IMG/VR virus record: IMGVR_UViG_3300036835_000593
Coordinates: 1-26,771 of that record
DNA: 26,771 nucleotides
DNA from: a virus
Strand: one strand, 5' to 3'
Positions 17,026 through 24,939 of this stretch are shown here, piece after piece. Positions within the stretch are counted from its first letter, which is position 1. Each line of letters begins with the position of its first letter. The notes beneath the pieces were generated by a model. It did not search any database. It had not been told where the DNA came from and worked only from the letters and a program-made list of their open reading frames with translations. Position numbers and translations under genes: made by a program.

Positions 17026-17054
17026 ATTGTATCATAACGAGACAGCAATGTCAA
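17026..17054 (-). promoter_or_regulatory. Near-consensus sigma-70 promoter
   Basis: On the minus strand TTGACA (17054-17049) is followed by exactly 17 bases and TACAAT (17031-17026): all six −35 positions and five of six −10 positions match consensus. Transcription would start near 17019, about 50 bases upstream of the Cys/His-rich gene. It is the best promoter I see in the window and would be active in an uninfected or lysogenic cell without phage factors. Confidence 0.88.
17030..17035 (+). promoter_or_regulatory. Possible opposing −10 element (TATCAT)
   Basis: On the plus strand TATCAT matches TATAAT at five positions and overlaps the −10 of the leftward promoter. A −35 at the right distance is poor (ATTTCA). 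It could serve the rightward small genes starting at 17071, which lack an obvious ribosome-binding site. Low confidence. Confidence 0.25.
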
Positions 17055-17280: not shown

Positions 17281-17585
17281 AGATCAAGCGCGAGGACATC
17301 GAGCGCACGTTCGACCGGCTGTCAAAGACCGGCGATCTCGATCTGATCGTCGCGATCCTGCAGGACGCCGCCGCGCTCGTCCGCGACGAGCTGCTGAAGA
17401 AGCTGTCGACCTTTCCCGTGGCCGACACGACCGACTTCGCCGCGTTCGCCTACCGGCAAGGGTGGCTGCGGGGCCTCGAGCAGGTGATCGCGCTCCTCGA
17501 CCCGGCCCGCATCCGCGCGCTCGAGGCCGCGCAGCGCGATCTCGTCCAGGAGATCGTCAGGTTCAACGAGGAGGAACTCGGATGA
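17277..17585 (+). CDS. Small helical hypothetical protein
   Basis: The product has 102 residues (MKIKREDIERTFDRLSKTGD), mainly helical and charged, with Leu/Ile heptad-like spacing (LDLIVAILQDAAALVRDELL; ALEAAQRDLVQEIVRFNEEE). No signal peptide or membrane helix is visible. It is coupled to the preceding gene and lies 28 bases before the endolysin. It could be a lysis-associated or small virion protein; the family is not recognised. Confidence 0.68.
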   Translation: MKIKREDIERTFDRLSKTGDLDLIVAILQDAAALVRDELLKKLSTFPVADTTDFAAFAYRQGWLRGLEQVIALLDPARIRALEAAQRDLVQEIVRFNEEELG

Positions 17586-17613
17586 CACACCGGAAGGGTG
17601 GGTGAGGTGCCCG

Positions 17614-18177
17614 ATGGCGGTCCATCGAGAGTACTTCTACGACAACCTGCGCTGCTACCTCTTCAAGTCGTTCACCCAGCAACAGGTCGATGGGCTGAAC
17701 GTCTTCCTCGACTGGTACGACACCGAGAATCCGTCCCTCCCGCAACGCTACCATCTCGGAGATCGCGAGTTCGCCTACATCCTCGCGACGACCTACCACG
17801 AAACGGCCTTCACGATGGCACCCGTGAGCGAGTACGGCGGTGAGGCGTATCTGAAGGGCAAGCCGTACTACCCCTACTACGGGCGCGGGTACGTCCAGCT
17901 CACCTGGCAGGAGAACTACCAGAAGCAGGACGAGAAGCTCTCGCTGGCCGGCGAGCTGGTGGCGAAGCCCGACCTGGCGCTCGACCCCGCCATCGCACTC
18001 GAGGTGATCATCGAGGGCATGTGCGACGGCGACTTCACCGGGAAGAAGCTCGCGGACTACTTCACCGACAGCGACACCGATTTCTACAACGCGCGCCGGA
18101 TCGTCAACGGCACCGACTGCGCGTCCACCATCGCGAGCTACGCGGAGAAATTCTTGAACGCCATCGCGCATACGTGA
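17614..18177 (+). CDS. Endolysin, glycoside hydrolase family 19-like
   Basis: The product has 187 residues. The ATG at 17614 has a GAGG six bases upstream and is preferred to an in-frame GTG at 17602. The lysozyme-like fold of GH19 is shown by TTYHETAF, with a probable catalytic Glu at residue 63, and by the signature YYGRGYVQLTWQENY (89-102). Next come the LALDPAIALEVIIEGM helix and the FYNARRIVNGTD segment, as in phage GH19 lysins. It would cleave cell-wall glycan for host lysis. There is no signal peptide, so release would need a holin, which I cannot see in this window. Confidence 0.88.
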   Translation: MAVHREYFYDNLRCYLFKSFTQQQVDGLNVFLDWYDTENPSLPQRYHLGDREFAYILATTYHETAFTMAPVSEYGGEAYLKGKPYYPYYGRGYVQLTWQENYQKQDEKLSLAGELVAKPDLALDPAIALEVIIEGMCDGDFTGKKLADYFTDSDTDFYNARRIVNGTDCASTIASYAEKFLNAIAHT

Positions 18178-18189
18178 GGAGGATCCCCC

Positions 18190-18573
18190 ATGCGGACGTT
18201 CGGACTGCTCCTGCTGCTCGCCCGGCTCGCCTCGGCTGCCACGCTCGATCTGACGGCGCAGGCCCAGGGACAGCTCGCGACCGCGCAGACGGCCACGGGC
18301 GTCAGCGCGAACGAGGCCGATTTCGGGGTGTCGGGGCGGCGCGGAGCGGCGCTCTTCCAGCTCCGCAATACCGCCGGCACGGCGACGGTCGAGTTGCAGG
18401 TGAACTGTCTCCCCGGCACGGCCGACTACGCGGTGATCCCGAGTTCGTCCACGGCGCTCACCGTGAGCAGTGCCGCGCTCGACGTCGTGCGACCGGGGTG
18501 CCGCTACCGCAGCAACGTCACCGCGTGTAGCGGCTGCAACGTCACGGTGACGGTGACGAGCATCGCGCAGTGA
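18190..18573 (+). CDS. Secreted small protein with signal peptide
   Basis: The product has 127 residues, with a strong GAGGAGGA site before the ATG. The N-terminus MRTFGLLLLLARLASA is a typical Sec signal with cleavage expected after ASA. The mature part is Thr/Val/Ala-rich and beta-like (GAALFQLRNTAGTATVELQV) and ends in a four-cysteine region (YRSNVTACSGCNVTVTVTSI). It overlaps the next secreted protein gene (GTGA), so the two are probably made together. Phage structural proteins normally lack Sec signals, so an extracytoplasmic role in the host cell is more likely than a virion role. Family not recognised. Confidence 0.8.
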   Translation: MRTFGLLLLLARLASAATLDLTAQAQGQLATAQTATGVSANEADFGVSGRRGAALFQLRNTAGTATVELQVNCLPGTADYAVIPSSSTALTVSSAALDVVRPGCRYRSNVTACSGCNVTVTVTSIAQ

Positions 18574-19286
18574 GCCGCTGGCCGCTCCTCCTATCGCTCC
18601 TCGCCGCAGGCGTGGCTCTTGCCTCGGTCGGGAGCGGCCCCGCGTCCCTCCAGCGGTTCGCTTGTACGGGACCGGCGTCGATCCATCCGGGGCCCGCGTC
18701 CATCGGCGGCTGCGTCGTGACGACGACGACGACGCTGCCAGCGGTCCCGCAGGTGTTGCCGGTGGCAGGGAATGCGGACGTCAACTGTCCGACGACCATC
18801 CCGACGCAGACCGGCAGCTTGTCCTTCGTGAACATGCTCATGGCGTCGCGGACCTGTGCCACCGGAGCCAACCCGAACGGGTACGATGTCACGGCGTTTT
18901 CGGCCTACATCGGGACGGCCGCACCGGGCAGCAATCTGCGGTGCTCCGTCTGGACCGCGCCCGCTGGGTACGTCTCCGGGACGACGGCGATCCCGAAGGT
19001 GGCAGCCGGCTGCGATAGCGCGCCGTGGGCGAGCACGGTGAGCCCGAATGCGTTCGTGCAGATGACGGTACCCGGCCCCTGCCATCTGGCACCAGCCACA
19101 CGCTACTTCATCGGCTGCAACCAAGATAATACGGGCATCTCGCAGGCCTACCTCACGCCCTGTGGCTCCAACTGTGCGGAACAGCGGACGGGCACCACGT
19201 ATCCCGGCCTACTCGATCCGTGGACGGCGACCTCGACGGCGGGTGGAGCGATGGCGTGTTACCTGACGGTCACGCCGACGCCCTAA
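18570..19286 (+). CDS. Secreted Cys-containing protein with Thr-rich linker
   Basis: The product has 238 residues, GTG start coupled to the previous stop. A Sec signal (LLLSLLAAGVALA) is followed by three GPAS repeats, a TTTTTLP linker and a beta-rich domain (AFSAYIGTAAPGSNLRCSVW; ATRYFIGCNQDN) with about nine cysteines that could form disulfides outside the cytoplasm. The domain loosely resembles beta-sandwich adhesion or surface modules, but I cannot name a family. T-run plus LP linkers are common in secreted proteins of some high-GC bacteria, which hints at host origin. It is the last gene before the terminator. Confidence 0.78.
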   Translation: MSRWPLLLSLLAAGVALASVGSGPASLQRFACTGPASIHPGPASIGGCVVTTTTTLPAVPQVLPVAGNADVNCPTTIPTQTGSLSFVNMLMASRTCATGANPNGYDVTAFSAYIGTAAPGSNLRCSVWTAPAGYVSGTTAIPKVAAGCDSAPWASTVSPNAFVQMTVPGPCHLAPATRYFIGCNQDNTGISQAYLTPCGSNCAEQRTGTTYPGLLDPWTATSTAGGAMACYLTVTPTP

Positions 19287-19328
19287 TGCAGCGGCGGCGC
19301 ATCGGCCGGATCGTCGTCGTCACCGGAG

Positions 19329-19345
19329 AAGGCGTGCGCCTTTTT
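19329..19345 (+). terminator. Rho-independent-like terminator
   Basis: A short stem AAGGC/GCCTT with a GTGC loop is followed by TTT (five T in a row counting the stem). It lies 43 bases after the stop of the last gene in the rightward lysis/secretion unit and before the convergent small gene. The stem is only five base pairs, so strength is uncertain. Confidence 0.5.
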
Positions 19346-19375
19346 GAGCAGGACCCTTCGACACCATCAACGCAC

Positions 19376-19594
19376 TCAGTCCTTCCGCATGCGCTCCAGT
19401 GTCTCCTGCGCCACCTGACGCGCGGTCGCGAGGAAGGCCTGCCGGAACTCCTCATCCGCCCAAAGTTCGCGGGTGACTTCCTCCGTCGCGCGGATCGCCT
19501 GTCCACTCAGCCACGTCGCGAGCGCCCGCTCGACACTCTCGGTGATCAGCCGGTCCATCGGCGTCCGAGACGCCCCATTCTTCCGCCGTGCCAT
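19376..19594 (-). CDS. Small charged helical protein next to the Uma2 nuclease
   Basis: Unrecognised 72-residue protein (MARRKNGASRTPMDRLITES). It is predominantly helical and highly charged, with a basic N-terminus and Glu/Arg-rich remainder (RATEEVTRELWADEEFRQAF). Its start overlaps the stop of the Uma2-type gene (ATGA), so it is translated with it. A partner or modulator of the nuclease is conceivable but unsupported beyond adjacency. Confidence 0.68.
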   Translation of the reverse strand: MARRKNGASRTPMDRLITESVERALATWLSGQAIRATEEVTRELWADEEFRQAFLATARQVAQETLERMRKD

Positions 19595-20193
19595 CAGGCG
19601 TCTGGCACCAGACGCCAGAGGGCGTCGAGGTCGATGGCGGGCCCGACGACCGGCATCACGATCCCGGCGGTGGCGAGCAGCACCCGCCCGTATGTCCAGC
19701 CCTGCCCGGTTGCCCGCTGTCGCAGATAGACCTCGAACACGCGGTGGATCGGTTCCAGCGTCCAGTAGTGTGGGACGCCGAACGCGCAGTACTCGATCAG
19801 CTTCTGCGTCCGGTCGCGCTGCACGTCACGCGGACGGGGCGACACCACCTCCACGATGAGGTCGGGCACGGCGCGCATCTGGCCGTCCCACGGCACCGGC
19901 TGCCCGCTCCACCACGCGATCAGATCGGGCTCGCGCACGTCGTAGTCCCCGAGACGGAGGTCGGGATTCGCCCACGTCCCGCCGCCCTTGGCGCGGGCCC
20001 ACGGCTCCAGCACGTTCTCCAGTGCTCGCAGCATGATCTGGTGCCGTCGACTGGGCATCTCCCCCTCCACCACGACCCCGCCCACCAGCTCGAGATCAGT
20101 GCCGGGTGCCCGATCCTCGCGCTCGCTCTCCCCGAACGCGGCCTCGAACTCGTCTGCCGTCATGCGCTGCGGCTGCGGCTCTGCGGTCGCCAT
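19594..20193 (-). CDS. Uma2-family putative restriction-endonuclease-fold nuclease
   Basis: The product has 199 residues, the usual size for the family. Family features in order: ELVGGVVVEGEM (about 35-46), a conserved His in SRRHQIMLR, REPDLIAWW with D90, then PDLIVEVVSPRPRD with E115, and KLIEYCAFGVPHYWTLEP (131-148), the diagnostic K-x-EY-GV-YW region. Together these give a PD-(D/E)XK-like active site. Members are abundant in bacteria; their biological roles are poorly known. A 9-bp perfect inverted repeat lies 14 bases before the ATG. It is in a leftward unit with an XRE regulator. Nuclease activity is inferred from family. Confidence 0.88.
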   Translation of the reverse strand: MATAEPQPQRMTADEFEAAFGESEREDRAPGTDLELVGGVVVEGEMPSRRHQIMLRALENVLEPWARAKGGGTWANPDLRLGDYDVREPDLIAWWSGQPVPWDGQMRAVPDLIVEVVSPRPRDVQRDRTQKLIEYCAFGVPHYWTLEPIHRVFEVYLRQRATGQGWTYGRVLLATAGIVMPVVGPAIDLDALWRLVPDA

Positions 20194-20206
20194 GGCGGGC
20201 AGGATA

Positions 20207-20229
20207 TGTCAACCGCGTGCCGGTTGACA
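20207..20229. promoter_or_regulatory. Perfect 9-bp inverted repeat, operator candidate
   Basis: TGTCAACCG / CGGTTGACA with a 5-base spacer lies between the zinc-ribbon gene and the Uma2 start. Each arm contains TTGACA reading outward, but neither has a matching −10. An XRE-type regulator is encoded two genes upstream, so this is a plausible operator. A weak processing or pausing hairpin is the alternative. Confidence 0.6.
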
Positions 20230-20230
20230 A

Positions 20231-20497
20231 TCAGCGATAGACGCCGCCGCCGGGGGCCGCTTTCGGGTCGTCCCGCACGCTGGAGACGGAGCGGTGGCGC
20301 GGGCAGCGATAGACGACGACGCCGGGACGGAGCGGGTTCGGATGCGCGTACGCACGGGTGCGGAGGCTCCCGCACACGTCGCACGCGGCGCTGCCGACGA
20401 CCGTCGGATGCGGGTCCAGCACCGGCCGGGGCGTCGGCGCCCGGCGGACGTGCGCCGGGGCGGTGACGGTGCCAAGCGCCTCGTCGTCGTCCGTCAT
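20231..20497 (-). CDS. Small zinc-ribbon-like protein
   Basis: The product has 88 residues. The start at 20497 overlaps the stop of the XRE gene (ATGA), which selects it over the longer open frame. The first 35 residues are Pro/Arg-rich. The core has C39-x2-C42 (ACDVCGS) and, 22 residues later, C65-x2-H68 (YRCPRHRS), a likely zinc knuckle. The C-terminus is short and disordered. Such proteins are common in phage accessory regions; no specific role is visible. Confidence 0.7.
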
Positions 20498-20772
20498 GCC
20501 TCCCCACGCGGGATCACGTCGGCCAGCAGGGACATCGCGTCCCAGTGCGCCTGGAAGGTGGCGGCGCAGAGGATGGCGAGCGCCGTCGCCTCGTCGTCGT
20601 CGGCGGCGAACGCCCGGATCAGCGCATCGCCCCGATGCGGATCGCACCAGCGCGTGCCGCGCTCGATCTCCGTCACGTCCGCGAGCGAGAGCCCCGCCCG
20701 CCGCGCGAGCGTCGCCCGGTCCCACATGCGCGCCCGCCGCAGGCGCGTCACGGCACGGCACAGGGCGTCCAT
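20494..20772 (-). CDS. XRE-family helix-turn-helix regulator
   Basis: The product has 92 residues from the ATG at 20772. Residues 8-42 ([20 protein letters not shown], then [14 protein letters not shown]) match the XRE/Cro helix-turn-helix: TLARRAGLS positioning helix, V-x-x-IERG-x-R recognition helix and following turn. The second half is helical and could dimerise. It heads the leftward unit ending in Uma2 and sits 45 bases from a divergent rightward unit, the classic place for a repressor controlling both. An imperfect palindrome lies between them. No strong ribosome-binding site; translation may start close to the transcript end. Confidence 0.78.
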
Positions 20773-20784
20773 CCGCGTGTGATC

Positions 20785-20802
20785 GTAGCACGAACATGGT
20801 AC
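20785..20802. promoter_or_regulatory. Imperfect palindrome and extended −10 in the XRE divergent gap
   Basis: GTAGCA and TGGTAC form a dyad with one mismatch and a 6-base centre. On the minus strand the same bases include TGCTACGAT, an extended −10-like element that would start transcription a few bases before the XRE ATG. A regulator binding here could block its own promoter and the rightward unit. Confidence 0.4.
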
Positions 20803-20817
20803 GCTCCGAGGGCAGGG

Positions 20818-21594
20818 ATGGCGCGCCTCCGATCCTGCCTCGCCGCCGTGGCACTCGCGACGTGCCCGCTGGTGCCGATTCCGTCGAAGCGTGCGCTGTG
20901 CCAAGCGGTCTGTCAGCCGCTCGCCGCCTCCGTCTGCGCCGCCCTCACGGACGGGGCGCAGAAGCGATGCGTGCGCGGCATCACGAACATCTGCGTCCAG
21001 ACCGATCCATCCGCGTGCCCCGCCCCGGTCGGTCCCGCAGGCCCCCCTGGACCCCCCGGAGCCACCGGGCCACCCGGTGCTGTCGGTGCTGTCGGTCCCA
21101 CCGGTCCTGCCGGTCCCACCGGTCCTGTGGGTCCGCTCGGCACGCCTGGGATCGCCGGCATGCCTGGCGTCGGGGGACCGGTCGGCGCGACCGGACCAGC
21201 GGGGCAGGACGGACCACCGGGGCCCCCCGGCGCGATGGGCACCCCCGGCCTCGCTGGCGCGACGGGCGCACCGGGGGCGACGGGACCGACCGGCCCCGCG
21301 AGTCCCCCGCTCGCCGTCACGATCCGACAGGTGTCCCAGACCTTCGGTCGCGCGCAGTCGGGACAGCTGATCACCGTCACCGTGCCCTGTGCGGCGGGCG
21401 AGATCGTGCTCGCGGGCGGCGTCGTGCCGACGATTGCGGGTGGCACCGCCACAGACATCTCGCGCGTGCACCTCCTGGTTTCCGGGCCCGCGAGCGCGAC
21501 GGCGTGGACGGCGGCGAGCACGATCACGAGCACGCTCTCGCAGACCGCGAATCTCACCTACGTCGCGTTCGCGTTATGCGCGCCGTCGTCCTGA
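20818..21594 (+). CDS. Secreted collagen-like protein
   Basis: The product has 258 residues with the ATG at 20818 just behind GAGGGCAGG. The first 25 or so residues are signal-like ([18 protein letters not shown]), followed by a cysteine-containing segment to about residue 70. Then come 30 uninterrupted Gly-X-Y triplets, many GPP, GPT and GAT, which should form a collagen triple helix. The last 90 residues form a beta domain ([20 protein letters not shown] ... [11 protein letters not shown]) like the GG-x-V / A-x-CA tail domain seen in bacterial collagen-like surface proteins. Phage collagen repeats usually belong to fibres, but the export signal and neighbouring outer-membrane gene point to the host surface. 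Confidence 0.85.
21029..21300 (+). repeat. Gly-X-Y coding repeat (30 triplets)
   Basis: A degenerate 9-bp periodic sequence rich in GGN-CCN codons encodes about 30 consecutive collagen triplets. No two long blocks are identical, so this is not a recent expansion, though short units such as GGTCCTGCCGGTCCCACC recur. Confidence 0.85.
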
Positions 21595-22739
21595 GTCTCG
21601 CCGTCGCCACCTCGGCGCTCGCGAGTCCGCAGTCGGTGCTCACCGACACGATGGGCCGCGCCTGCGTCCAGGTGCGCGGCTCCTTCTCGCTCCTCGGCAC
21701 GGCGCTCGGACAGGACGCCGCCATCGCGATCACGAACGGCCCCACGGCGCTCGCGTCGATGAGTGGAGCCATCGACTCGAGCATGAGCGAGCTGGGCCCG
21801 ATCTTCCTCGATCACCCACAGACGCTGGGACGCGGGCGGATCAACCTGAACCTGCTGGGCCAGACCTCCGCGCTGACCTCGTTCGACGGCATGTCCCTCG
21901 ATCCGCCAGCGCAGACGGTCGTCTTCGGTCCCCCGCCGGTCGTTGCCGCCCGCCTCACGTACGACGCCCGGATCCGGCAGGCGGCGGTGGGGCTCGCGCT
22001 CTCCTACGGGCTGCTCGACCGGATCGATCTGAGCCTGCTCTTCCCGCTCGTCTTCACCCGTGTCGCCGTCACCGCCACCAAGCAGGTGACCGACGCGCTG
22101 CAGACCGGGCGCTTCGTCCCCGTCCACCAGCCCGCGATGACCGCAAGCGGCGCGGCGTCGGCGTTCTCGCAGGGCGATCTCACCGTGCGCGGCAAGTACG
22201 GGTTCTGGGATGCGCCCGTCGCGCTCGCCGCCACGCTCGCCGTCCAGTTCCCGACCGGCGTGCCGGAACTGCTGACGGGCACCGGGCACTACTACGTCGA
22301 TCCCGGCCTCGCGGCCTCCTACCCGTTCTGGGGCGGGCGCGCGGAGTTGAACGCCTCGCTGGGCATGCTGATCGACGCCTCCCAGCTCTCGTTCTCGAAG
22401 GTCAGCTACGGCATCGGTGCGAGCGCCATCGTCGTCCCGCAGCGCCTCGGCGCCGTGCTCGAGGTCTTCGGCCAGAGCGACGTCGCCGCGCATCTCAACC
22501 CGCAGGACACGGCCGTGCTCACCCTGCTCTCGAACCGCACGCTCGCGCAGCAGCCCGCGCTCAATCTCTTCTTCACCCGCACGGATCAGGTGAATCTGTC
22601 GGTCGGGCTCCGCGCTCCCGTCGCCGCCATCGGCTCGCTCAGCGTGCTCGTCTTCGCGACCGCCGTCATCCCGCTGAACGACCAGGGGCTGCGTCCCAGC
22701 GGCGCGTTCCTGACGCTGGGGATGGGCAGCACCTTCTAG
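21576..22739 (+). CDS. Predicted outer-membrane beta-barrel protein
   Basis: The product has 387 residues, starting at the ATG at 21576 inside the end of the collagen-like gene (19-base overlap). A Sec signal ([17 protein letters not shown]) precedes a region with alternating hydrophobic/polar strands and tight turns, for example [40 protein letters not shown] and [18 protein letters not shown]. It ends in LTLGMGSTF, a C-terminal Phe as in the barrel-assembly signal. The order of strands recalls transporter-like barrels such as the phenol MetA family, but I cannot fix a family. An outer-membrane barrel in a phage region is rare and implies a diderm host. Confidence 0.82.
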
Positions 22740-23248
22740 ACCTCCCACCGCTTGCGGATTCGGCGCGCGATCTCGCGGTGCGAGGCGAGCGCCTCCTCCT
22801 CGGAGCCGTAGCGGAGCTGCGTCGTCGTCTCCCCCGGCGCGCCGGGAACGGGGAACTCCAGCTCCGGATGGCTCTGGAATTCGTGCCCGGACGGTCGCAG
22901 GACGTGCGTCTCGATCTCGCCCGAGAAGTACATCGTCTCGAAGAAGAGCGGACGCCCGCCGAACCCGTGGTCGAGGCCCAGCCACGCCGTCGAGAGCAGC
23001 GAGCCGTCGGGGAAGTCGGTCTGCGCGACGGTGCGGAGGAGCGGATCGGCCTCCAGCATCCGCGCCCAGGCGAGCGTCGGCCCAACGTCGCTGCCGTCGC
23101 CCGGAATCGGGAACCCTTGGCGGTCGTAGTAGCGCGGCCCCGGTCCCATCACCGGATCCAGCAGGCGCTCGTAGACCGACCCACGCACGCGGCTCGCGTG
23201 GAGATCGCAGAAGGCGAAGAGGGCGGCGCAGTCAGGCGGCGGTGGCAT
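22736..23248 (-). CDS. Common phage hypothetical (LGLDH-x-F/LFETM type)
   Basis: The product has 170 residues. The central block TDFPDGSLLSTAWLGLDHGF, then RPLFFETMYFSGE, then LRYGSEEEALASHREIARRI, matches a widespread uncharacterised phage protein with the pattern STV-LGLDH ... LFETM ... RY-TWEEA-GH. I do not know a function for it. Its stop shares the CTAG tetranucleotide with the convergent barrel gene's stop. Its start overlaps the zinc-ribbon gene by 17 bases. Confidence 0.82.
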   Translation of the reverse strand: MPPPPDCAALFAFCDLHASRVRGSVYERLLDPVMGPGPRYYDRQGFPIPGDGSDVGPTLAWARMLEADPLLRTVAQTDFPDGSLLSTAWLGLDHGFGGRPLFFETMYFSGEIETHVLRPSGHEFQSHPELEFPVPGAPGETTTQLRYGSEEEALASHREIARRIRKRWEV

Positions 23249-23573
23249 GTGCCACCGGCTTGAACCGCCGCACGCGCGGCCGGTGCCAGTACGGCGACGA
23301 GCACGTCGCCCGCGAGCAGCGCACCGGCAGCATCCCCGACCGGACGAACCACTGCCAGCCGCACCGCGCGCAGCAGAGCCACACCGTCCCCGCCGGCAGC
23401 GCCCGCTGCTTCGGGATGCTCGTCTTCCGCCACTGCGCCGTCGCCCAGAGCATGGTCTTGCAGCCGGGGCAGTCGCGCGGCTTCACGTCCGGGTCGGTCA
23501 GATGCCAGACGTAGGCGCAGACCTGGCAGCGCGTCCAGGGACGGATGACGGTCGGGGTGACGGGCGGGGTCAT
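23232..23573 (-). CDS. Tandem zinc-ribbon protein
   Basis: The product has 113 residues. The first ribbon has C16-x2-C19 and C35-x2-C38 (RCQVCAYVW ... CPGC). The second has C68-x2-C71 and C86-x4-C91 (CCARCGWQWFVRSG ... RCSRATCSSPYW), a pattern like the W-C-x2-CG-x-W-R ... P-x-C-x2-C phage/plasmid zinc ribbon. The tail is basic (RPRVRRFKP), so nucleic-acid binding is plausible. It is divergent to the gene at 23670, with a repeat array in the gap. Confidence 0.78.
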   Translation of the reverse strand: MTPPVTPTVIRPWTRCQVCAYVWHLTDPDVKPRDCPGCKTMLWATAQWRKTSIPKQRALPAGTVWLCCARCGWQWFVRSGMLPVRCSRATCSSPYWHRPRVRRFKPVAHATAA

Positions 23574-23591
23574 TGCCCCTCTCCTCTACCG

Positions 23592-23655
23592 GGACCGGGA
23601 ATTTCGGGCAAGATCCCCCCGGATATTTCGGGTTGACGCCGCCGGATCTTTCGGG
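23592..23655. repeat. Three direct repeats of CCGGA-TTTCGGG at 23-24 bp pitch
   Basis: TTTCGGG occurs at 23602-23608, 23626-23632 and 23649-23655, each preceded by a CCGG(G)A-like element, giving CCGGGAATTTCGGG, CCGGATATTTCGGG and CCGGATCTTTCGGG. Each is itself a partial dyad (CCG...CGG). Spacing of two helical turns and location in a divergent gap suggest an operator array. A TTGACG at 23633-23638 lies 17 bases before a poor −10. Confidence 0.65.
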
Positions 23656-23669
23656 TCTGGTGTCCCGAC

Positions 23670-24083
23670 ATGTCCAGTCGGTTCCTCGCCATCCTCTTCA
23701 CCATCCCACTCGTCGGCCTCGCCGTGCTCGCCGTCACCGCGCGTCCCGTCACCCCTCCTGCTCCCGCCACCACCCCCGCCCGCCCCAGCGTCGGCATCTG
23801 GCGCGTCGTCTGCCCGCCGTCGGGCTGGGGCTGGGGACCGTTCACCAGTCCCGACGCCTGCCGCAGCCGGCTCGAGTCCGCGCAGCAGACGTGCGCCCGG
23901 CCGCTGCTGGAGCCGCACAGCCCCAATCCCGACTTTGTCGCGCTCGCGCCGCTCTGCCGTGACGCGTTGAACGCGTCGCTGTGCTCCTGCGACTTCCAGC
24001 TCGTCGTCGCCCGCGTCCCGACTGCCGGGGAGTTCCTCGCCAGCCCCCCCACGCCGACCGCCGTGCTGTTCGGCCGTCCCTAG
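23670..24083 (+). CDS. Exported or membrane-anchored Cys-rich protein
   Basis: The product has 137 residues. The N-terminus MSSRFLAILFTIPLVGLAVLAV is a signal or single membrane anchor, followed by a Pro/Thr-rich linker (TPPAPATTPARP). A domain with six cysteines then follows (WRVVCPPSGWGWGPF; CRDALNASLCSCDFQLV), probably disulfide-bonded outside the cytoplasm. No lipobox is visible, and it does not resemble a known spanin. It converges with the PP-loop enzyme gene, one base separating the stops. It is the fifth export-signal gene in the right half. Confidence 0.75.
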   Translation: MSSRFLAILFTIPLVGLAVLAVTARPVTPPAPATTPARPSVGIWRVVCPPSGWGWGPFTSPDACRSRLESAQQTCARPLLEPHSPNPDFVALAPLCRDALNASLCSCDFQLVVARVPTAGEFLASPPTPTAVLFGRP

Positions 24084-24084
24084 A

Positions 24085-24939
24085 TTACTCGCAGAGGTTG
24101 TAGATCGAGAGGCAGCGCGGCGTCGGCAAGAGCGGCAGCTGGTCCTCGTCCACCGAGAGCAGATAGCGCGCGACGTCGTCCACGGTCGGCGCGAACATGC
24201 CGCGCCCATCCTTCGTCTTCACCGGCACGGAGCAGAACCGCTGCGGGATGTAATCCGCGCGGAACATCGTGCGCGGGGACTCGGAGACGCCCGCACTCTC
24301 GGTCGCGAGCCGCTCGACCCGCCGCAGCCGCTCGAGCAGCGCGGGATCGTGCTTGATCAGCACACGCAACTCGCGGTGGTTCACGAACACACACGGCCAG
24401 CAGCCGACTCTCCCCGCGCCGATTTTGTAGAGCGGATTCGGTTCGACCCCATGCCGCTTATGAATGGCGAAGACGTCGCGCACGGGCCAGCGAAAGATCG
24501 GCCGCACGATGGTGTAGCCGGGGCGGTAGTGCCCATCCACCTGGCCTTCGGGCACCTCCTCGCGCTCCAGCATCTGAGAGCGCGGCGCGGACTCCTCCGC
24601 ACGAATCCCCTGGTAGAGCACCACGTCGTCCTCGAGGCCGGCGATGTACGCCCAGAGCGGGAAGATCTTCAGTTCCTGCGTGCAGAACCGCGTCGTCTTC
24701 CCCGGAATCATCCGGCGCTTCACGACCAGATCCTCGAAGCCCGCGTACGTGGATGAGCGCAGCACGGTCAAGTTCGGGAGCACGCCCGCCTCGAGCACGC
24801 CCCAGATGTAGCCGTACGTGAGGGCGTGCTCCCACGCGGTGTCCATGAAGACAACGGTGCACTCCACGCCCTGCTCGCGCAGCAGCAGCACCACCGCCGT
24901 CGAGTCCTTGCCGCCCGAGAAGGCGACAACGTGGCGCAT
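24085..24939 (-). CDS. PAPS-reductase-family PP-loop enzyme
   Basis: The product has 284 residues. SGGKDS at residues 8-13 is the ATP-pyrophosphatase PP-loop. GIRAEESAPR (about 112-121) matches the second family motif. A cysteine pair in AGRVGCWPCVFVNHREL (about 174-190) follows the W-VRDVFAIHKRHGVEPNPLY segment and could hold a metal or cluster. Such proteins are frequent in phages. True PAPS reductases make sulfite, while relatives act in nucleic-acid sulfur or base modification; the substrate here is unknown. It starts directly after the stop of the DUF3008-like gene. Confidence 0.85.
   Translation of the reverse strand: MRHVVAFSGGKDSTAVVLLLREQGVECTVVFMDTAWEHALTYGYIWGVLEAGVLPNLTVLRSSTYAGFEDLVVKRRMIPGKTTRFCTQELKIFPLWAYIAGLEDDVVLYQGIRAEESAPRSQMLEREEVPEGQVDGHYRPGYTIVRPIFRWPVRDVFAIHKRHGVEPNPLYKIGAGRVGCWPCVFVNHRELRVLIKHDPALLERLRRVERLATESAGVSESPRTMFRADYIPQRFCSVPVKTKDGRGMFAPTVDDVARYLLSVDEDQLPLLPTPRCLSIYNLCE

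Follow-up and report, generated by a model that had tools for sequence, protein, structure and literature searches.

Lambda Lom and the PA-2 porin are phage-encoded outer-membrane proteins of lysogens. Spanins (Rz/Rz1, T1 gp11) are small exported or membrane proteins that are mutually coupled, lie in the lysis cassette and build a rod on the scale of the periplasm; a survey of 677 phages left 91 (about 13%) without a spanin, and considered that an outer-membrane protein could serve as o-spanin (PMC6139136). Prophage tail fibres of the EPclA type combine a collagen triple-helix stretch with end domains (PMC3368898), while myxobacterial TraA/TraB outer-membrane exchange relies on a Cys-bearing surface protein with an operonic barrel partner (PMC12045341). 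All these systems share features with the stretch of DNA analyzed here (the window), a linear virus record from IMG/VR, 26,771 bases long with 68.6% GC, that is probably an incomplete phage genome. Its predicted barrel shares with Lom and the PA-2 porin a Sec signal and a probably temperate phage background, but differs in being of the PF13557 type (the only family recovered in a Pfam scan to E=1, which gave no Ail_Lom match), in being coupled to a collagen-like gene and in lying beside an endolysin in most contigs. Compared with spanins, no lipoprotein was found with the phage pair; a collagen rod would take the place of the coiled coil and a barrel that of the lipoprotein. The collagen-like protein differs from EPclA-type fibres in its signal leader, its N-terminal cysteines and its C-terminal domain, and a candidate assignment to the collagen-like phage tail fibres was not supported, given this leader and the lack of a Phage_tail_N or Phage_fiber_C match. 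Membership in TraA/TraB, considered for the gene layout and for a TraB match, was rejected (11.1 bits against a cut-off of 700, E=0.07, not significant), and neither the OmpA-like domain nor the MYXO-CTERM described for that system (PMC12045341) was found here.

The window has an SU10-type backbone with major capsid (PF17236), portal (PF23899) and adaptor (PF24175) genes, in addition to a terminase, an S74 tail fibre and a GH19-type endolysin (17602..18177, + strand), which recurs as a context gene with the exported set. This endolysin matched the PHROG 181 endolysin family at E=2.5e-21 and fell slightly below the Pfam cut-off for Glyco_hydro_19; a four-row alignment was made of it. The named phages nearest by portal (Caulobacter phage Kuura, Microcystis phage Mel-JY34, Vibrio phage VS-ABTNL-3 and Desulfofustis phage LS06-2018-MD01) have portals homologous to that of the window over most of their length, at <30% identity. 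Within IMG/VR, a sister contig of 25.2 kb has a portal 92% identical to the window's, and two more contigs have portals ~70% identical. Searches with tblastn against phages returned no homologues of the barrel, the collagen-like protein or the products of genes 18190 and 18570, those against plasmids none of the barrel or the collagen C-terminal domain, and scans of bacterial genomes none of the barrel or of the Uma2-type protein. No tRNA genes or Rfam matches were found in the window, and a promoter/terminator scan was uninformative on the two coupled gene pairs described below.

The first-pass annotation had proposed five export-signal genes between positions 18190 and 24083, and all five are indeed open reading frames with coding-type GC3. 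Signal peptides were scored with a heuristic written for this analysis rather than with SignalP. Sec-type starts are clear for 18190 (score 4.50, predicted site between MRTFGLLLLLARLASA and ATLD), 18570 (4.36, between MSRWPLLLSLLAAGVALA and SVGS) and the barrel gene 21576 (4.47), whereas the start of 23670 (4.60, between MSSRFLAILFTIPLVGLAVLA and VTAR) may be a signal or an anchor. The leader of the collagen gene 20818 is weaker (3.74), with a cleavage site that is poor here and stronger in some homologues; it is nevertheless conserved, since the homologues retain the leader and a K-[RH]-A-L-C junction. By the same score, the four nearest named phages have 5 signal-like proteins among 221 annotated, mostly implausible, against five in the window; as a background for any score, 4.8% of shuffled proteins and 10 of 173 six-frame ORFs were positive. 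The five signal genes are confined to 10 of ~27 genes (P ~0.003, post hoc), and the mature exported proteins contain 2.81 Cys per 100 residues vs 0.75 in the virion, packaging and lysis proteins. At the level of sequence, the leaders thus show predicted export of all five products from the cytoplasm. The five had been read as one cluster, which the comparisons below resolve instead into two separable coupled pairs (18190 with 18570, and collagen with barrel) and a fifth gene.

To place these genes among other phages, scans with GH19 and with the terminase of a second lineage were made, which gave >90 further loci; the counts reported here are of contigs, several of which are close relatives drawn from the same metagenomes, and the choice of queries favoured linkage to GH19. 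As the earlier suggestion of a search in other phage contigs anticipated, the cluster genes recur. In two of the contigs (L002 and L010) collagen, barrel and GH19 genes are consecutive, and relative to the window their terminases are ~25% identical, their barrels 60–66% and their GH19 proteins 62–65%. Within the second lineage the terminases are 92% identical and the barrels just 60%, so the histories of barrel and terminase differ. Locus L028 holds within 4.2 kb, in order, homologues of 18190 (53%), 18570 (38%, E=3e-30), the barrel (34%), the collagen-like protein (42%) and GH19 (59%), with none of the head or packaging genes of the window in that locus; L024 and L041 resemble it. Four of the exported proteins therefore travel together with a GH19 endolysin among unrelated soil phages. 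Barrel and collagen genes are missing from many related phages that do carry GH19 or a member of the 18190 family, and the 18190 and 18570 pair is absent from the sister in the loci compared.

The collagen-like gene (20818..21594, + strand) and the barrel gene (21576..22739, + strand) share a 19 nt overlap. The collagen-like call of the first-pass annotation was borne out by alignments and by a Gly-X-Y repeat above the PF01391 cut-off (50.9 vs 27.2 bits, E=1.3e-13). The protein consists of the leader, a conserved six-Cys domain, the rod and, at the C-terminus, a domain in which one pair of Cys is invariant. In the window the rod spans about 21031–21300 (~90 residues), and rods in the family have 48–93 residues, or 14–27 nm when reckoned at 0.286 nm per residue. 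For the predicted outer-membrane barrel the sequence evidence stood, namely PF13557 above cut-off (29.7 vs 22 bits), a C-terminal F and alternating hydrophobicity that only 0.3% of shuffles equalled, while the AlphaFold2 model from a four-row alignment (pLDDT 33) was unusable. Among homologues, PF13557 scored 26.1 bits in L010 and 23.5 in L024 (cut-off 22), with no match in the most divergent ones. Between window and sister the barrel gene has a pN/pS of 0.33 and the collagen gene one of 0.38, from which we conclude that both genes are kept by selection. An HTH regulator (20494..20790, − strand; HTH_31 above cut-off, 86% identity in the sister) is divergent from the pair, the two starts being 27 bp apart; in L004, from the window's own lineage, a membrane coiled-coil gene occupies this HTH-divergent slot, which holds collagen and barrel genes in both the window and the sister.

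The barrel family has 15 members including the window's, and an exported collagen gene adjoins in 15/15 (the automated count was 14, to which the barrel-collagen pair of L099 was added, with a gene just below the score cut-off and ~90 bp away). Exported collagen genes number 20, of which 14 run straight into GH19 (−6 to 388 bp) and 2 more lie in the same block as GH19; five of the collagen-GH19 contigs were retrieved by the terminase query, not by GH19. In the window itself 2.6 kb, including a block on the opposite strand, separate the endolysin from the collagen-barrel pair. The membrane coiled-coil gene adjoins the collagen gene in seven cases and precedes GH19 or terminase in 25/41 contigs, and in L082 the ORF after the collagen and coiled-coil genes is not GH19 but resembles an M15-type endopeptidase (judged by eye, without a profile).

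The other pair was also coupled as first described, in that the exported Cys protein 18190 (18190..18573, + strand) and its exported partner 18570 (18570..19286, + strand) overlap by 4 nt (GTGA). The 18190 family comprises 36 members including the window's (homologues in L002, L028, L034, L041 and others), with conserved cysteines, a hydrophobic segment ahead of the domain in every match and no match in Pfam, PHROG or NCBIfam. In the second lineage the gene lies 2.5–3.8 kb downstream of the terminase, directly behind the portal in 30 of the 33 contigs with enough sequence, and the idea of an optional moron was dropped for this near-core family. Fused copies, e.g., L002:15985-16581 and L010:7615-7872, total 21; they place the 18190-type domain in frame after a small basic phage domain (phrog_20603), which makes the signal-like stretch internal, and other copies have their own start and signal. 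A second signal-bearing gene follows in 21/33, mostly with 4–40 nt of overlap and often with a GCGP-type spacer. The C-terminal beta domain of this partner is exchangeable, being Laminin_G_3 in 8 of 10 tested, DUF4082 in L002 and choice-of-anchor-R-like in the window (NF041539, E=6e-4, below cut-off). The AlphaFold2 model of the 18570 domain from a single sequence (pLDDT 39) was unusable, and a Foldseek list obtained with it, which held nothing below E=0.3, was disregarded. A 2-TM gene follows the family gene or pair within 1.7 kb in 21/37, with GH19 next in L027. Separately, a 133-residue Cys protein with a signal, encoded between terminase and portal at L010:4679-5080 (+), had no family match.

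Genes for terminase, portal, endolysin and holin-like proteins ("holin-like" denoting size and topology only) accompany both pairs, which suggests that the pairs are expressed late rather than in the lysogen, the setting for which the first-pass annotation had proposed them. We therefore favour, with a probability of roughly 0.4, that the exported genes are late genes whose products target the envelope of the host as infection ends, with the collagen rod and the barrel perhaps as stand-ins for spanins. The genes themselves carry export signals, conserved cysteines, two coupled pairs, the mark of purifying selection on barrel and collagen, and linkage to endolysin and holin-like genes. A host with an outer membrane is assumed from the barrel. 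The collagen-like protein would form a trimeric rod of ~14–27 nm that works with the outer-membrane barrel, and the two could link the outer membrane with the periplasm or the cell surface during cleavage of the wall by the endolysin. In this way outer-membrane opening, or egress, would be coordinated with the endolysin, a spanin-like action without membership in a spanin family. The 18190 and 18570 proteins, made in the oxidizing periplasm, would supply a base protein and a lectin-like binding domain open to exchange; their place of action would be the surface, debris or particles already released. A more specific version is tentative and rather doubtful: soil phages would have a hitherto undescribed system for exit through the outer membrane, in which the Sec-exported collagen rod and barrel replace spanins and the second exported pair, a Cys protein and a lectin domain that can be exchanged, has the envelope or the released particles as its target.

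In a search of 15 contigs, accompanied by a control, no candidate spanin lipoprotein (lipobox) was found within 3.5 kb of the endolysin; the window has two lipobox matches, both off the exported and lysis genes. At L002:3544-3792 (+), a long way from the endolysin, a small signal-bearing coiled-coil protein weakly matched an Rz-like spanin (E=0.011). Against an exit function, the lectin-like domains suggest binding rather than lysis, many relatives do without barrel and collagen genes, the window's own pair stands apart from its endolysin, and gene neighbourhood by itself is no proof of function. The linkage of the exported set to lysis genes hints at an unrecognized way to open or alter the outer cell layer, and the recurring barrel-collagen-endolysin set makes outer-membrane opening without a recognizable spanin testable with few genes.

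A lysogenic role is nonetheless not foreign to these phages. No integrase was recognized in the window, an incomplete record, but a tyrosine recombinase is present in the sister (PF00589, E=6.6e-13) and in 6/6 second-lineage contigs >32 kb, so the clade is probably temperate, and the earlier idea of surface remodelling in lysogens keeps a place. The barrel, collagen and lectin-like proteins would then modify the lysogen or infected cell at its surface, with receptors blocked or adhesion changed, as lysogenic conversion or superinfection exclusion. We consider this unlikely. It accords with the export signals, the integrases, the HTH gene divergent from the collagen-barrel pair, the fit of barrel and lectin-type domains to a surface role, and the known inactivation of receptors by phage proteins such as Cor (PMC11436027); however, co-location with terminase, portal and endolysin genes makes late expression likelier, and the 18190 family, near-universal behind the portal in its clade, is unlike an optional moron. 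If the products do remain on the cell surface, a broad and probably temperate clade of soil phages would possess a surface-conversion set of several genes. One 54 kb contig (G005, the contig of L064) has two integrase genes (17495-17959 and 53119-53595); it possibly contains two prophages, or a prophage with host flank, and could reveal the host.

The position directly behind the portal in 30/33 and the 21 fusions to a small phage domain, together with Laminin_G_3 on the partner, would also suit virion parts loaded through the Sec pathway, in which 18190 and 18570, perhaps with the collagen-like protein, are exported for disulfide formation and, once the cell lyses, attach to the particle as decorations or as fibres whose lectin domains are exchangeable. 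We regard this as distinctly unlikely, since we know of no tailed-phage virion protein with a Sec signal, a barrel is hardly expected in a virion and the collagen-like protein lacks the two fibre-domain matches, even though collagen domains do occur in prophage tail fibres (PMC3368898). Least probable of all are separate acquisitions without a common task, for although gene order varies among contigs, the sister lacks 18190 and 18570 in the loci compared and 23670 changes freely, this is contradicted by the constant pairing of barrel and collagen, the gene overlaps, the purifying selection and the gathering of the same families beside endolysins in unrelated contigs, so that it fits 23670 only.

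That fifth gene (23670..24083, + strand) encodes a small Cys-rich protein with an N-terminal signal or anchor, and falls outside any shared cluster, being seen only in the window and the sister, with no homologues beyond the sister among the loci compared. The two copies are 42% identical, keep 6/6 Cys columns and have a pN/pS of 1.09, i.e., fast change on a fixed disulfide frame. It has no match in Pfam, PHROG or NCBIfam and, like the 18190 family with none and 18570 with a sub-threshold one, would therefore be annotated as hypothetical. Between the two exported pairs lies a Uma2-type endonuclease gene (19594-20193, −; PF05685, PADLOC candidate PDC-S03) with 51% identity to the sister copy. 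In the gap after the portal, a near-perfect sigma-70-like promoter (17026-17054, −; 11/12 with TG) points back to the portal, without a clear gene or Rfam match. Next to 23670, a PAPS-reductase-family gene (24085-24939, −) matches defence-type profiles (SspD E=1e-20, DndC E=3e-14), and genes of this sort are carried by many phages.
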